Origin: Akkermansiaceae bacterium
GTDB lineage: Bacteria > Verrucomicrobiota > Verrucomicrobiia > Verrucomicrobiales > Akkermansiaceae
Length of the DNA: 40,097 bases
Direction: 5' to 3'
Assembly (NCBI GenBank): GCA_903934285.1
Contig: CAIZNN010000041.1
Location: 1-40,097, forward strand
The translations under genes and the position numbers were made by a program. Below are positions 16,747-37,591 of the stretch, in pieces. The notes beneath the pieces are model-generated. The model ran no database searches. It was given only the letters and a program-made list of their open reading frames with translations, and was not told the origin of the DNA. Each line of letters starts with the position of its first letter. Within the stretch, counting starts at the first letter, position 1.

Positions 16747-18216
16747 ATGACCCGCAGCACCTTTCCGACCGTGCTTGTCAGCTTCTGCGCCGCAGTCCTC
16801 TGCGGTGCTGCGGAACCGGCGTTTTTCGCCATGGACACCGGCACCCGCGATGCCACCCACCAGACGGCCGCGGCGCAGGTGGCCATGGTCAAGGAGCTCG
16901 GCTTCGCTGGCATCGCCCCCTGCTACACCACACCGGCGGCGCTGCGCGACATGCTCGCCGCGGTGGACCAGCAGCACTCGAAGTTGTTCGCGCTCTACGT
17001 GGGGCTCGATCTCGATGCCCCCACCCCGCTGAGCCCGGAAATCCGCGACTCTATCAACCAGTTGCGCGACCGCGACGCGATCCTGTGGCTATATGTCACC
17101 GCCGCCGCCCACAAGCCGTCCGATCCCGCGGCCGACGCGCGCGCCGTGACGGTCCTGCGCGAGGTGGCCGCCCTGGCGGCACCGACCGGCCTGCGCATCG
17201 CCCTCTATCCACACGCCGGCGCGTGGGTCGAACGCGTCGATGACGCGCTGCGCCTGGCCCGCCAGGTGGATCGCAAAAACCTCGGCGTGACCTTCAACCT
17301 ATGCCACTGGTTGATGGTCGATGGCAAGGACCTCGATGCCAGTTTGAACGACGCGTTGCCCTATCTTTTTGTGGTGACCATCAACGGGGCCGACGCGGGT
17401 GGCAAGGATTGGGGGAAGTTGATCCAACCGTTGGATAGCGGCACGTTCGACGTGAACCAGGTCCTAACAAGCCTGCGGCGGCTCGATTTCACCGGTCCCG
17501 TGGGCTTGCAGCATTACGCCATCCCAGGCGATGCCCGCGCCAACCTGCAACGCTCGATGAACGCCTGGCAACGCCTGCATGGCGTCGCCCTGATGCCGCC
17601 CGGTGCGGCCCTCGCCGCGTGGGAGCCCGCCACGGGATGGAGCGAGGTCGGAAATGTCAGCCTCGACCCCCACAACCCCGGCCGCTTGCAAACCGCACCC
17701 GGCACGGGCGTGCTCGTCTCACAAGGCGCGGGCCAATACCTGCTGACAAAAGAGCGCTTCGGCGACGTCGCGGTGCATCTGGAGTTCCTCATCCCGCCGC
17801 ACTCCAACTCCGGCGTGTACTTCCTCGGCAGCCACGAGCTGCAGATCTATGACAGCTTCGGCGTCGCCGAGGGCGAGTACCCCGGCATCGAGTGCGGCGG
17901 CATCTATCCGGAATGGGTCAACGACGCCAACCTCCGCGGCCATTCGCCGCTGGTCAATGCCAGCAAGCCGCCCGGCGAGTGGCAGCGCTGCGACGTGACC
18001 TACCGCGCCCCGCGCTTCGACCCCGCCGGCCACAAAACCCGCAATGCCCGCTTCGAGAGGGTGCTGCTCAACGGCACGCTCATTCAGGAAAACGTCGAGT
18101 TGCTAGGCCCGACCCGTGTCGGCCTCCCCGAGCAGGCCGGCGGCCCGCTGCGCCTGCAAGGCGACCACGGCCCCGTCGCCTATCGCAATTTCCGCGTCCG
18201 TCCGCTCAGTGAGTGA
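16747..18216 (+). CDS. Sugar isomerase/epimerase-type TIM barrel fused to DUF1080 (3-keto-glycoside hydrolase-like) domain
   Basis: A 489-residue exported protein. A signal peptide ends near CGAAEP. Residues about 25-275 are a xylose-isomerase-like (AP endonuclease 2) barrel, with YPHAGAWVERVDDALRLA, GVTFNLCHWLMVDG and FVVTINGAD carrying the usual metal-ligand positions. Residues about 290-489 are the DUF1080 concanavalin-like fold: ERFGDVAVHLEFLIP, NSGVYFLGSHELQIYDSFG, CGGIYP, WQRCDVTYRAPRF and GPVAYRNFRVRPL. DUF1080 proteins are linked to 3-keto-disaccharide hydrolysis in this group of bacteria, so a role in breaking down oxidised glycosides in the periplasm is likely. No matching dehydrogenase is adjacent. 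Both domains look intact. Confidence 0.9.
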   Translation: MTRSTFPTVLVSFCAAVLCGAAEPAFFAMDTGTRDATHQTAAAQVAMVKELGFAGIAPCYTTPAALRDMLAAVDQQHSKLFALYVGLDLDAPTPLSPEIRDSINQLRDRDAILWLYVTAAAHKPSDPAADARAVTVLREVAALAAPTGLRIALYPHAGAWVERVDDALRLARQVDRKNLGVTFNLCHWLMVDGKDLDASLNDALPYLFVVTINGADAGGKDWGKLIQPLDSGTFDVNQVLTSLRRLDFTGPVGLQHYAIPGDARANLQRSMNAWQRLHGVALMPPGAALAAWEPATGWSEVGNVSLDPHNPGRLQTAPGTGVLVSQGAGQYLLTKERFGDVAVHLEFLIPPHSNSGVYFLGSHELQIYDSFGVAEGEYPGIECGGIYPEWVNDANLRGHSPLVNASKPPGEWQRCDVTYRAPRFDPAGHKTRNARFERVLLNGTLIQENVELLGPTRVGLPEQAGGPLRLQGDHGPVAYRNFRVRPLSE

Positions 18217-18234
18217 ATGCGGCTGGCTTGCAAG

Positions 18235-18394
18235 GGTTATAATGCCAGGCATTATGCTGTTGACAGCGCCCCGGGGTTATAATGCCAGGCATTTTGCTGT
18301 TGACAGCGGCGCGGGGTTATAATGCCAGGCATTATGCTGTTGACAGCGGCGCGGGGTTATAATGCCAGGCATTTTGCTGTTGACAGCGGCGCGG
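18235..18394. repeat. Four tandem 40-bp repeats carrying a palindrome, TATAAT and TTGACA
   Basis: Exact 40-bp periods start at 18235, 18275, 18315 and 18355. Each unit holds the palindrome AATGCC-A-GGCATT, then GCTGTTGACAGCG. Copies 1 and 3 continue as ATTATG and copies 2 and 4 as ATTTTG, which suggests duplication of an 80-bp pair; copies 1 and 3 have the longer palindrome ATAATGCCAGGCATTAT. The spacing from TTGACA to the next TATAAT is 12 bases. The array begins 18 bases after the barrel/DUF1080 stop. The remaining 18395-18661 shows no gene, only a GTTGAG-ctggaa-CTCAAC hairpin at 18524-18541. Confidence 0.9.
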
Positions 18395-18661
18395 GCGGGC
18401 GGCGTTGGCGTTGGAGGGTCCCGGTGGCCGGGCGTGCTTTGAGGCCTTGAGTGGGGGCATCCGGCGTCGAGCTGGGGAGGGGTGGGATCATGACCCGGCT
18501 AACCTGACAGGAGCAGCACCGAGGTTGAGCTGGAACTCAACAGGCTTTGCGATGCCGCGCCCGGAGGCGGAGTACGCCAATCGCCCCAGCCATTCCCTGT
18601 GGAATCACACCTTTGGGATTGAGTTGGGCGGCTAGCCGCCTATGCTCCTGCCGTTCGCCCC

Positions 18662-19627
18662 ATGATCCGCCCCCTGATTGTCCGCCTCATTGCGCTGCTG
18701 AGCGCCTGTTCACCCCTGCTGCTGCATGCCCAGGGGCCGGAAAGCGCCATGGTCGTGGAGGCCTATTCCGGCAAAATTCTCCTCGCCACCAATGCCGCGG
18801 TCAAACGCCCGGTCGCCAGCCTCACCAAATTGGCCACCGCCATCGTGGCGGTGGATTGGGCCACGGCCACCGAGGCCGACATCAGCCAGCTCGCCATCAC
18901 CGCGCCGCAAACCATCACCTTGGTCGGCGGTCCCAACCCGATGAACCTGCAACCCGGCGACACCTTGACCCTGCGCGACGCGCTGTATTCCGCGTTGTTA
19001 GGGTCCGACAATCTCGCGGCCCTCACCATTGCCGACCACGTAGGCCGCGAGATTCTGGCCAAACGCGGCAAGGACGGCGATCCGGTGGCGGCCTTTGTCG
19101 GAGAAATGAACAAACTCACCAAGCTCAGCGGCATGACCCAGACCAAGTTTGTCAACCCGCACGGGCTGGAGCGGCCGCGGGCGCAAGGCAGCTCCACCGC
19201 GGCGGACATGGCCCGGCTGGCCATGGTGGCGATGCGGCGCAATGCGATCAATTTCATAGTGCGCCAAAAGGACCGCCATATCGAAGTGACCGGTGCCAGC
19301 GGCAAGCACGGGTATTTGATCCGCAACACCAATGAATTGATCGGCGAGGAGGGCATTCTCGGCATCAAAACCGGCACCAGCGCCGCCGCCGGCCCGTGTC
19401 TGGCCACGTGCATGGACCGCGCGCCGTTGATCCGCACCAAGGCCGATGGCTCCAAGGGGGCGACGCCGCGGCGCTTGATCGTCATCGTCCTCAACAGCCC
19501 GGACCGCTTTGGCCGCGCCCGCCACCTGCTGCAGCAGGGTTGGACGCTTTACGACGCCTGGCTCGCGGCCGACGCCCCAGTCAACGATCCGCGCCGCGAA
19601 ATCCTCTCCGTGCCCACGCCGAATTGA
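18662..19627 (+). CDS. D-alanyl-D-alanine carboxypeptidase (S11 family, DacA-like)
   Basis: A penicillin-binding serine enzyme that trims the terminal D-Ala of peptidoglycan pentapeptides. It has 321 residues with an N-terminal signal peptide ending near LLLHAQG. All three active-site motifs are present: SLTK (Ser53-Lys56), SDN (115-117) and KTG (236-238). The protein is shorter than E. coli DacA and lacks its C-terminal beta domain and amphipathic anchor, so it is probably periplasmic. The next gene, an Lrp-type regulator, starts 31 bases later and is likely co-transcribed. Endopeptidase activity (PbpG-like) is a possible alternative. Confidence 0.93.
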   Translation: MIRPLIVRLIALLSACSPLLLHAQGPESAMVVEAYSGKILLATNAAVKRPVASLTKLATAIVAVDWATATEADISQLAITAPQTITLVGGPNPMNLQPGDTLTLRDALYSALLGSDNLAALTIADHVGREILAKRGKDGDPVAAFVGEMNKLTKLSGMTQTKFVNPHGLERPRAQGSSTAADMARLAMVAMRRNAINFIVRQKDRHIEVTGASGKHGYLIRNTNELIGEEGILGIKTGTSAAAGPCLATCMDRAPLIRTKADGSKGATPRRLIVIVLNSPDRFGRARHLLQQGWTLYDAWLAADAPVNDPRREILSVPTPN

Positions 19628-29410: not shown

Positions 29411-30559
29411 TCAGTTCGTAGCGGCCCCGGTTTGCAGCCACTCGCGGGTCACCGCCACGGACACCTTGCCCTGAATGCGGGTGGAAGGGCCGCCGCGGGC
29501 GCCGGTGACCAGGGTTTGGACGGTCTCGAGTTGTTCGCGGATGACGAGCGGATAGACCAGCGACAGCCAGACAGTGCCGGAGGTGATGGATACCTCCTGG
29601 TCGACGAGCGCGCCGTCCGGACCGGGCACCGCGGCGGCATGGTAATTGCCCGTGACCGCAAACACCCCGCAAGGATGGCCAGCGCTCACCGCGAACGACT
29701 CCAACTTGAGTACGAGCGCGCCGGAGGCCCCCTCGCCTAACAATAATGACAATGCCGTGCCACTCAGCGGCACGCTATCGCCCGGCTTGAGCCGGCGTTT
29801 GCCAAACCAATAGGCCCGCGGCATGACCCCCGCATCGAGGCAAGTGGCATCCAGCCTGGGGGCCAGGTTGCCGCCCCAGACGGTGAGCTTGAAATCGTTC
29901 GAGTGCTCTGGCTTCCATGCGCTGCCCTGGCGCACAAAGACGAGCTTGCAACCTGTCAGCTCCTTGATCGCGGTCAATTCATCCGGCACGGCGGCGGCAG
30001 CGGCGGCGGCGGCCGTTTCCTGGTTCTGCTTCGCTTGCTCGATCTTCGATTTGGCAGCCATGGCTTTGTCGGCCATGGCTTTGTCGGCCTTGGCCTTGTC
30101 GGCCACGGCTTTGTCATCCTTGGCGGTGGCGGGCTTGGCGATGGCGGCCACCTCGGGTTTGGCAAAGCCGGCGTTTTCGATGGTGAGTGCCAGCCGCGCG
30201 CCCGCACGCTCATAGCTGGCGGTGCAAAACTGGGTGCCGGAAACGACGGTCGCTTGGTTGCCGATAGCCGATTTCACCACCATCCGCGCGCCCTCAAAGG
30301 TCAGACGCCGCTCGACCTTCACCCGCAGTTGCTCGGGAAATGCCAAATCCTTGCGAAACAGCGCACCTTCCGGCGTTTGATCAACGAGGGCCTGCAGCCG
30401 CGCGTCGGGCGCGCTTTCCGCGGTCTTGGGGGCACCCAGGGCGGCCGACACGCTCGTCTCGGCCGCTCGCTTGGCCTTGTTGGTCAGCTCGCGGATCTTG
30501 CCACACGCGACCACGCTCAGGCCAAGGGCGGCGATGCCTAACAGGCGGCAGGAGGTCAT
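29411..30559 (-). CDS. Predicted lipoprotein with (A/K/D)-rich repeat linker
   Basis: A 382-residue protein. The signal MTSCRLLGIAALGLSVVAC ends in a lipobox with the likely lipidated Cys19. In the middle, about 145-195, lies a low-complexity linker of ADKAM/ADKAK repeats, Gln-rich residues and a run of alanines, probably a charged helix or coiled coil. The flanking parts share no family that I recognise; WLSLVYPLVIREQLETVQTL is near the C-terminus. Its ATG overlaps the cysE TGA (ATGA), so it is translationally coupled to cysE. The link to cysteine synthesis is not understood. Confidence 0.85.
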   Translation of the reverse strand: MTSCRLLGIAALGLSVVACGKIRELTNKAKRAAETSVSAALGAPKTAESAPDARLQALVDQTPEGALFRKDLAFPEQLRVKVERRLTFEGARMVVKSAIGNQATVVSGTQFCTASYERAGARLALTIENAGFAKPEVAAIAKPATAKDDKAVADKAKADKAMADKAMAAKSKIEQAKQNQETAAAAAAAAVPDELTAIKELTGCKLVFVRQGSAWKPEHSNDFKLTVWGGNLAPRLDATCLDAGVMPRAYWFGKRRLKPGDSVPLSGTALSLLLGEGASGALVLKLESFAVSAGHPCGVFAVTGNYHAAAVPGPDGALVDQEVSITSGTVWLSLVYPLVIREQLETVQTLVTGARGGPSTRIQGKVSVAVTREWLQTGAATN

Positions 30560-35530: not shown

Positions 35531-37351
35531 TCATTGGCCGGCTTTGTTGCGGTCTTTTTTGTCAGACGACTCCACCTCGGAGTCACGCGAAGCCGGCTTG
35601 CCCTGCGCGGGGGGGGCCACCACCTTGGGCGGAGTTATGGCTTGGCGCTGGGGTGGCTCGACCCGGCGTGACGGCTCCGGTTGCACCTGCCGTTTGGGAG
35701 GCGTCACCTCAGGCATGCGGGGTTCGGGTAGCACCTGCCGTTTTTTGGGGGGAATGTCGGCTTGGCGGGGTTGTGGTTCCAGCCGTTTTTGGGGGATCGC
35801 CTCGGCTTGGCGGGGTTGCGGTTCGAGCCGCTTTTTGGGGGTCGCCTCGGCTGGGCGGGGTTGTGGTTCCAGCTTTTTTTTGGGGATCACTTCGGTTTGG
35901 CGGGGCGCGGATTCCGGCGTGCGCAGGTCCAGATCCGCCGGGCGGCCGGTGCGCTCGGGTTTGGGCAGTTCCTTGAGCTCGGCCTTGGGGGCGCGCGGCG
36001 TAGCGGGCGGCATCTCGGATTTTTTCAACTGTCCGGCGGACTTGGCGACAATCGATGAGCGGGGCAGCTTCACGGTGGACGGTTCGATTGCGGCACCTGG
36101 TTTGCGGGGGGGCGCCTCCGCGCCGCCGGTCTCAAGCATGCGCCGCTGGTCGCGGGATTTGCGGATTTCCTGGCTGCTCTGGGCCAGCATTTTGCGGTCA
36201 TCCTGCGGCATCGCTTGAAACCGCTGCGGGCCGCCTTTGCGCTTGGCCAGTTGGTCGATGGAGGTGGCCGCCACGGCCCGCTGGTGTTGGGACTCCGGCG
36301 CATTGGCATCGAGGCCTTGCAGCGCGTCCCAAGTGCGCGGCGGGCGCGCGTTCTCGTGATCGCGGCGATATTGATAGGTTGTCTCGACGCGCTTTTCCCA
36401 GGCGCGGTCTTGCCGGTGCTCCCACCGCTCATGGGCATAGATCGGATCGTAGCCGAAGCGGTTGGATTGAAACGCGCAAGCTGCAAAATACCCGCCTTGG
36501 TGATAACCAGGCGCATAGTAGTCGCCGAAATAATAGTGGTGGTAGCGTGGCCGCAGGAAGAGCTGCTCGGCAAACAACGCCAGATCAATCACAATCAATG
36601 GCGAGTAGGAGTACCCCGGCCGCAAATACACGCCTTCATCAAACCAAACCGGCGCAAACACCACGCCGCGCCGCGCCACCGCATAATCCCAGTAGCCATC
36701 CACGAAAATGTAGCCGCGCGGCGTCCACACATAATGCGCGGGCATCCACGTCCAATCCGCCCGGCCTAACGACCAATACCCGGGCTGCCAGGCATATCGT
36801 TCCTGCCGCCAGATCCACGTCCCGGGCGTCCAGCCATAATCGCGCGAGGGCGCGGCGATATTCGGCCCGTTTTCCACAGTGGCCGGCGGCGGCGGCAAAT
36901 AGGTCGTCTCCTGTGCGGCGGCGTCGGCCCAATAGCCCGAGGTCCACTGATAGCCCTCCGTGGTTTTCCCCCAATAGCCGGCGATCCATTGGCGGCCGGG
37001 CGGCAAGGCGCGCCAGATGCCGCTGATCCAGAGAAAGTCGCTGCGTTCGTCGTCCCACGCCCAATAGCCGGGGATCCACGCCACGTTGTCGCCCTCCGGG
37101 CGTTCTGCCGGGGGGATTTCCTCGATCAGCTCGGGCGGGGTTTTGGGCACCACGACCCCTGGTTCGGGATTGAAGGTGACAATCCCGGCGAATGCCTCGT
37201 GCACCGGCCCGCGGGTGAGCACCTGGGCCACAGCCTCATCGCCAGCCGGCGCTTGGGCCAGGCAGGGGACCGGATGCCACGCGAGGGCGACGAAGCCTGC
37301 CAGCAGCGCGGTGTGCCAGGCTGTGGCAGCGTGGCGTGCCCGGAGGTCCAT
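35531..37351 (-). CDS. YXWGXW-repeat exported protein with basic Pro-rich C-terminal repeats
   Basis: A 606-residue exported protein. The signal peptide MDLRARHAATAWHTALLAG to CLAQA is followed by about seven YXWGXW-type repeats (WIPGYWAWDD, WISGIWRAL, WIAGYWGKT, WTSGYWAD, WTPGTWIWR, WQPGYWSLG, FVDGYWDYA), then a His/Tyr-rich segment (RPRYHHYYFGDYY). The last third is disordered, with an approximate 15-residue repeat of PKKRLEPQPRQAE and relatives, about four to five copies (DNA about 35690-35890). The protein probably sits in the outer envelope; function unknown. ATG at 37351 is chosen as the start of the signal peptide; the open frame extends to 37441. Confidence 0.9.
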   Translation of the reverse strand: MDLRARHAATAWHTALLAGFVALAWHPVPCLAQAPAGDEAVAQVLTRGPVHEAFAGIVTFNPEPGVVVPKTPPELIEEIPPAERPEGDNVAWIPGYWAWDDERSDFLWISGIWRALPPGRQWIAGYWGKTTEGYQWTSGYWADAAAQETTYLPPPPATVENGPNIAAPSRDYGWTPGTWIWRQERYAWQPGYWSLGRADWTWMPAHYVWTPRGYIFVDGYWDYAVARRGVVFAPVWFDEGVYLRPGYSYSPLIVIDLALFAEQLFLRPRYHHYYFGDYYAPGYHQGGYFAACAFQSNRFGYDPIYAHERWEHRQDRAWEKRVETTYQYRRDHENARPPRTWDALQGLDANAPESQHQRAVAATSIDQLAKRKGGPQRFQAMPQDDRKMLAQSSQEIRKSRDQRRMLETGGAEAPPRKPGAAIEPSTVKLPRSSIVAKSAGQLKKSEMPPATPRAPKAELKELPKPERTGRPADLDLRTPESAPRQTEVIPKKKLEPQPRPAEATPKKRLEPQPRQAEAIPQKRLEPQPRQADIPPKKRQVLPEPRMPEVTPPKRQVQPEPSRRVEPPQRQAITPPKVVAPPAQGKPASRDSEVESSDKKDRNKAGQ

Positions 37352-37591
37352 GCCGAGTGGTGCGGGAGCGGGTCCGGGCTGGTTGTGTGCCGCGGCGGCG
37401 GCGGCGGACCCGTGAGAGACAAGCAATGGTTGGCTGTTCATGGCGTTAGGGCCAAACTACACCATCATCAAGCCATTGCAAATGGGGATGCCTGAAAGAC
37501 TGCCCAGGCCGCTGCCGGACGGCGGGAGCACCTCATGAGTCCGTGGCCGGCCGGGTTCCGGCAGCACCGGGCACCCGCGCTTGCGGAAGTG

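Follow-up and report, generated by a model that had tools for sequence, protein, structure and literature searches.

The window, by which we mean the whole analysed stretch of 40,097 nucleotides, carries an array of four short palindromic, REP-like units between two genes on the same strand (Table 1). The upstream gene stops 18 bp 5′ of the array, and the DNA behind the array (18396–18661), compared by blastn with the other loci of the same genome, recurs there behind units of the same kind. Three further tandem repeats lie elsewhere in the window: a perfect 13-bp repeat (ATGGGATTGGGTG, 8.1 copies by Tandem Repeats Finder) at the contig start (1–105), 15/30/45-bp repeats at 30050–30151 inside a mechanical open reading frame on the minus strand (29411–30559), and a 45/90-bp repeat at 35737–35905 inside another (35531–37441, minus strand).

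Table 1. Features in and around the array; positions are those of the window.
Feature	Position	Strand	Basis
Upstream neighbour gene, 3-keto-disaccharide hydrolase and xylose-isomerase-like domains	16747–18216	+	ORF list, domain search; outside the element
Expected site of left terminus X	18214–18238	+	Only GCGNNTGGCT-like remains, by eye
Array of four REP-like units, period 40	18234–18395	+	Tandem Repeats Finder and direct reading
Conserved cores of the four units	18239–18264, 18279–18304, 18319–18344, 18359–18384	+	Core search
Non-coding tail	18386–18595	+	Tail profile hit (profile built from six stretches, this one included); blastn against own loci
Right terminus RE	18522–18596	+	Profile E 8.1e-17; window copy among profile sources
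RE terminal motif GGCGGAGTACGCCAATCGCCC, ending in the right inverted repeat	18566–18586	+	Motif with 3 mismatches
Possible promoter piece of the Peptidase_S11 gene, TTTGGGATTGAGTTG	18612–18626	+	Read by eye
Downstream neighbour gene, Peptidase_S11, D-alanyl-D-alanine carboxypeptidase type	18662–19627	+	ORF list, domain search; outside the element

The four tandem 40-bp repeats described in the initial annotation are real: Tandem Repeats Finder gives a period of 40, 4.1 copies, 95% matches, 0% indels and a score of 296, and direct reading shows that in each unit a palindrome is followed by TTGACA and this by a G+C-rich end. The palindrome AATGCC-A-GGCATT is present in all four copies, and the A/T alternation holds as CATTATG in copies 1 and 3 and CATTTTG in copies 2 and 4. 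The period is exactly 40 bp as stated, but the copies are not otherwise identical, copies 1 and 3 differing at two more bases in the G+C-rich end; the duplication of a two-unit block that was read from the alternation is still plausible. TATAAT and TTGACA both occur in the units, and a sigma-70 promoter made of them was considered and rejected: TATAAT precedes TTGACA within the unit and only 12 bp separate TTGACA from the TATAAT of the next, so that no promoter of normal order and spacing results. The suggestion that palindromes about four helical turns apart would face the same side of the DNA does not hold up, since 40 bp makes about 3.8 turns and the spacing of neighbouring units elsewhere ranges from 39 to 262 bp. 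No Rfam family was found in the window at the gathering threshold. The array as RNA folds better than shuffled sequences (z −3.44), as expected of repeated palindromes.

The genome-wide search for the palindrome that the initial annotation had proposed found the 13-mer AATGCCAGGCATT at 30 places in its own genome (reversed control 0), and the core ATAATGCCAGSCATTNNNNNNTTGAC matches 92 times there at up to one mismatch and 106 times at up to two (controls 0). A logo of 112 of 127 hits, built before opposite-strand double hits were removed, outlines a dispersed unit of about 37 bp, ANYATAATGCCAGSCATTATGTWGTTGACAGCGGCGG, with sharp bounds and almost no information outside them. Once double hits are removed, the fetched regions hold 106 copies at up to three mismatches in 65 clusters (37 single, 19 of two units, 6 of three, 2 of four and 1 of five), although some copies at contig ends were possibly counted twice, C7 and C91 sharing sequence, as do C102 and C177. 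The reading as a ‘variable repeat’, which had been offered, is partly right, clusters ranging from one to five units. All 41 pairs of neighbouring units within 400 bp are head to tail. For 34 unit pairs the flanks were comparable; in 15 of them no flank similarity exceeds the 95% level set by unrelated flanks, and these too have the same orientation. None of the 36 clusters with both neighbours overlaps a gene called at a score above 45, in loci of which 85.8% is called coding; these 36 are among the clusters outside an earlier list of 14 gene-linked ones, a count that later became 19. Seven single unit hits overlap weaker gene calls. The units show no strand bias by GC skew (29 of 65 on the G-rich strand), and the palindrome of the commonest variant is not predicted to fold as single-stranded DNA.

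The unit is thus a short intergenic palindrome at high copy number (106 matches, control 0) without being a canonical REP. The 5′ GT[AG]G foot is missing, the logo of 112 hits showing ANY before the stem and GTWG on its 3′ side, and inverted head-to-head and tail-to-tail dimers do not prevail, every one of the 41 pairs being direct.

Many units stand directly before a transposase gene. The genome has 42 Y1_Tnp matches, which include two long subfamilies: RAYT-A, with the unit just 5′ of the frame and in the same direction, and RAYT-B, without it. RAYT-A follows the unit in 19 of the 65 clusters and starts 30–39 bp past the core in the 13 clusters in which query residue 1 aligns. It is present in multiple copies, with at least 23 matches in its own genome (23 of the 92 own candidates were scored), and seven aligned copies are 72–92% identical to the first. 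The N-terminal linker varies between copies, including L076 of cluster C166, by alanine/valine-rich codon repeats. RAYT-B (for example L085, L086 and L070) has another leader, AGAAAGTNSTTGACRTGG, which is doubled before some genes and occurs at 17 places at up to two mismatches, against 1 for the reversed control; at 11 of the 17, a Y1_Tnp match follows within about 250 bp.

RAYT-A is a long relative of the REP-associated tyrosine transposases and an HUH/Y1 single-strand nuclease of the TnpA-REP/TIRYT kind. It scores 35.2 bits against Pfam Y1_Tnp (cut-off 23), and its only NCBIfam match is NF047646, the REP-associated tyrosine transposase, at 68.1 bits and so below the curated cut-off of 80; the IS200 transposase model NF033573 gives no match at E ≤ 0.001. 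The only solved sequence relative up to E 1 is TnpA-REP 4er8 (E 0.011), which is also the best PDB fold match of an AlphaFold model (mean pLDDT 79.6, pTM 0.74), followed by IS608/ISDra2. The HuH motif is H152-F-H154 and the tyrosine is Y271 in Y---NP, H154 and Y271 being 117 residues apart; an alignment of 44 homologues shows no variation at H152, H154, Y271 and N275. The protein thus combines HuH and Y---NP on a Y1 fold closest to TnpA-REP, and its gene is flanked, mostly on the upstream side only, by its own dispersed palindrome family. The nearest named carriers are Akkermansiaceae/Verrucomicrobia metagenome-assembled genomes (MAGs).

Further parts recur on either side of unit and gene. A left terminus, X (CAGGGCGTTTGGCTGACTGGGGCAACTC...), begins abruptly 5′ of the units, and a right terminus, RE (GGCTGATTAAGCCAMTCGCCCTG), lies at the end of a non-coding tail. 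The X profile has 24 hits in the genome’s own loci, 21 of which precede a unit on the same strand, and the RE profile has 23, of which 21 lie behind a unit, likewise on its strand (reversed controls 0). X was modelled on unit flanks, and copies from the genome itself served to build all three profiles (X, RE and tail), whose hits therefore include their sources; the loci were chosen for holding units, so that the counts cover unit-bearing loci. An earlier regular-expression scan for RE had found 19 places behind a unit and, as a twentieth, an other-strand reading of one of these. Of 14 terminal bases, CAGGGCG(T/A)TTGGCT, 13 are shared by X and the reverse complement of RE. Three of the four pairs of the RE stem are nearly invariant among 18 copies, and the evidence for compensatory change is weak.

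Counted by cluster, X is found in 22 of the 65, RAYT-A in 19 and RE in 21; at least one further part, tail included, accompanies the unit in 45, and the unit stands without X, gene, tail or RE in 20, four of which have less than 170 bp of downstream sequence. Of the 19 clusters with the gene, 3 are followed by RE, and 8 are covered over the full 1700 bp. X and RE surround one gene copy in the profile scan (C166), which places a Y1 gene between terminal inverted repeats, while many gene copies have no detected end. A simpler model, in which nothing lies to the left of the unit or past the stop codon of the gene, is ruled out by X, tail and RE. The window copy consists of array, tail and RE, to about 18591; the X profile has no hit in this cluster at E ≤ 0.05.

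Relatives supply intermediates. In MAG CAIKDP bin-1240, two copies consist of X, unit, codons 1–103, a later piece of the gene (230–268 in one, 426–444 in the other), tail and RE; they are internal deletions caught part-way. The X and RE profiles find both ends in two loci of relatives and X alone in a third, whereas a search for terminal inverted repeats in five such loci gave no clear terminal pair. At one locus, L169, a short tandem repeat (cgctatccgcca-like) lies between X and the unit.

Within the genus, the repeat is found in some of the genomes searched. The relaxed core occurs in 5 of 73 genus genomes: 101 matches in its own, 35 in G530 (some of them opposite-strand readings of one palindrome), 5 in G536, 2 in G506 and 1, with a mismatch, in G505; at up to one mismatch, a search of 144 other genomes of the family, including 21 from the same genus, did not find the core. 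Close RAYT-A copies are present in its own genome, G530 and G506. G536 has one unit before an 81% identical RAYT-A fragment at a contig end, and the 3 kb of sequence surrounding the G505 match showed no RAYT-A. Tandem units 38–42 bp apart recur in G506 and G530. A second version of the unit, AACTGCCAGGCATACAATTGACTTG, occurs in 7 of 12 genomes tested (G544, 9; G513, 4; G547, 3; G545, 2; G511, G546 and G497, 1 each), all seven having a RAYT-A relative 46–56% identical, and none was found in G000, G506, G530, G520 or G254. Dispersed copies carry the gene-linked variant in G513 and G547 and differ from it in G545 and partly in G530. Judged from these genome sequences, the repeat appears to be common in the genus only where RAYT-A is present, in genome-specific versions. 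In G530, two gene-linked units (C362 and C139; L193 and L107) have an inner palindrome (ACTGGC, ACTGTC) of opposite sense to that in the majority of the dispersed copies; the side on which TTGAC stands is unchanged. Distant RAYT relatives of an Opitutales MAG (L153–L161) have a common AATAAANACACAGGGCCTTTATTTGACA-like leader 5′ of the gene, which may be this module with its parts differently ordered.

The initial annotation had proposed a multi-site operator, and palindromic units in an intergenic region 5′ of a carboxypeptidase gene would suit one; a host regulator acting through such an array on the downstream gene is, on the present evidence, very improbable. Operator sites would be conserved before orthologous genes. 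Matches to the Peptidase_S11 gene itself occur in 69 of the 73 genomes of the genus, its own included. The roughly 480 bp upstream of the orthologues at the 13 other loci fetched contain the array in no case; genus-wide, the core was found in only 5 of the 73. Before the G530 orthologue there is a single opposite-facing unit, in the version of that genome, about 165 bp from the gene. What the 13 orthologue upstream regions have in common is, by eye, TTGAGTT (window 18620–18626), shortly before the start and outside the array. The same units also stand before unrelated genes and before the transposase gene, at variable spacing, and the mobile element that has the unit in its front part recurs at dozens of unrelated sites. 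The array does not look like a promoter or control switch. As grounds against its reading, the annotation had named a random distribution with no link to genes, or absence in close relatives: the unit is indeed absent from most relatives, but it is linked to a gene, specifically that of the transposase.

Two other readings keep the transposase and shift the role of the unit. The unit might itself be the mobile entity, which RAYT-A would spread on its own as a strict REP family, with X, tail and RE secondary. Canonical REPs are likewise described as short palindromes tied to a RAYT (in part of PMC6006769), units far outnumber detected X or RE, and 20 of the 65 clusters are units only; the further element parts in the other 45 and the missing GTAG foot 5′ of the stem make this rather unlikely. 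The unit might instead be chiefly the promoter and autoregulatory leader of RAYT-A, with TTGAC as −35 box and the palindrome as operator, and a mere passenger elsewhere, as the near-constant distance to the RAYT-A start would suggest. Leaders with a CAG core and TTGAC or TTGCC, a pattern picked after viewing leaders and hence exploratory, precede 25 of 43 diverged relatives against 172 of 762 control windows. Yet no convincing −10 box is seen by eye 17 bp after TTGAC, and TTGAC is kept in gene-less copies, which recent copying could also explain and which the search core partly demands; we regard this reading as unlikely.

Dispersal, the link to RAYT-A, the recurrence of X, tail and RE, the deletion derivatives and covariation across the genus together argue for a non-autonomous transposon of TIRtron/REPtron-like kind and against an operator. 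We consider it highly likely that a gene-less copy of a RAYT-A-linked transposon family lies here, with the array as its front part and its end at about 18591. The full element would read X, one or more REP-like units (palindrome, then TTGAC), RAYT-A, non-coding tail and RE. In TnpA-REP and IS608, the tyrosine nicks single-stranded palindromic ends and rejoins them. By analogy, RAYT-A would recognise palindromic sequence at the element ends in single-stranded DNA, cut it with its tyrosine and rejoin it. The roughly 100 scattered palindromes were probably dispersed in this way, by a single-strand-DNA transposase that still lies beside many of them. Gene-less copies would arise by internal deletion and be moved in trans by transposase supplied from intact copies elsewhere, some of which may be active at present. 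The unit keeps a fixed position ahead of the gene and has drifted along with the transposase, which points to a recognition site: most likely the unit would be that of the transposase, just inside the left end, and it may also carry the −35 box of the gene. The ‘protein-binding array’ of the annotation would then stand with the transposase as its likely binder. Tandem units probably stem from duplication, the four window copies from that of a two-unit block.

Several observations speak against so simple a picture: the unit-only clusters, which may mean that units spread alone or that ends have decayed; the ends missing from many copies, X of the window copy among them; the commonest variant, which is predicted to fold poorly, and the absence of any strand bias; the gene-linked and dispersed versions that are not all alike in G530 and G545; and the NCBIfam score below cut-off.

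We found no description of such an element in Akkermansiaceae in the open-access literature searched. What is new is the group of bacteria that hosts it, the strict head-to-tail order of its units, and a transposase similar to a subclass for which REPs are reported to be lacking. We put forward tentatively, as a possibility that we would not yet favour, that a verrucomicrobial lineage of REP-type (‘domesticated’) transposases stayed, or again became, a true multi-copy transposon that combines terminal inverted repeats with a REP-like palindrome inside and many gene-less derivatives. If so, IS-like, TIRtron and REPtron lifestyles would be joined in one element, and REPs could arise as an internal end-module that multiplies in tandem. 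This touches the old question of where REP palindromes come from and whether their transposases still move anything. Repeat arrays and copies with the gene occur here in one lineage, together with deletion intermediates in a relative; with their defined ends, they offer natural substrates on which transposition could be tested directly.

IS200/IS605 elements have the HUH/Y1 fold, palindromic sequence at their ends and gene-less derivatives. The present family has the same three traits and differs in its terminal inverted repeats and in a protein that scores as a REP-associated transposase and not as IS200.

Among the TnpAY1 subclasses, RAYT-A resembles 2.3 in HuH–Y distance, length and copy number, as far as sequence can tell: subclass 2.3 combines a HuH–Y distance of about 110 residues and an inserted domain with multiple copies and a long protein, and the RAYT-A model has several helices between the strand at 152–159 and the helix at 224–243. 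A 10-residue insertion between β1 and αA is part of the description of subclass 2.3 (Quentin 2018, PMC6006769); the RAYT-A model has only 8 residues between strand 105–113 and helix 122–139. For subclasses 2.1 and 2.3, the part of PMC6006769 that deals with them reports no REP-like sequences. The REP/RAYT systems, or REPtrons, as portrayed in parts of PMC6006769 and PMC3733652, likewise pair a short intergenic palindrome of about 100 copies, in genome-specific versions, with their own neighbouring HUH/Y1 transposase; here the 5′ GT[AG]G foot and inverted pairs are missing, the transposase is multi-copy and long, and terminal inverted repeats lie further out. Opitutus terrae, in the lines that PMC3733652 gives to it, has a REP-rich genome of the same phylum, with GTAG-tagged repeats in head-to-head and tail-to-tail dimers, and is likened here by description, not by sequence.

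A parallel in layout is found in the TIRtrons and their TIRYT transposases (Di Nocera et al. 2013, PMC3733652), which, in the account given of them there, have a Y1 transposase gene between terminal inverted repeats, some families of which are dispersed through the genome and clustered like REPs. The GGGGWSAS motif, found according to that account in the repeats of only some TIRtrons, is not seen by eye in the X and RE consensus. Unlike TIRtrons, the present family has an extra internal palindromic unit, multiplied head to tail, and gene-less copies with both ends.
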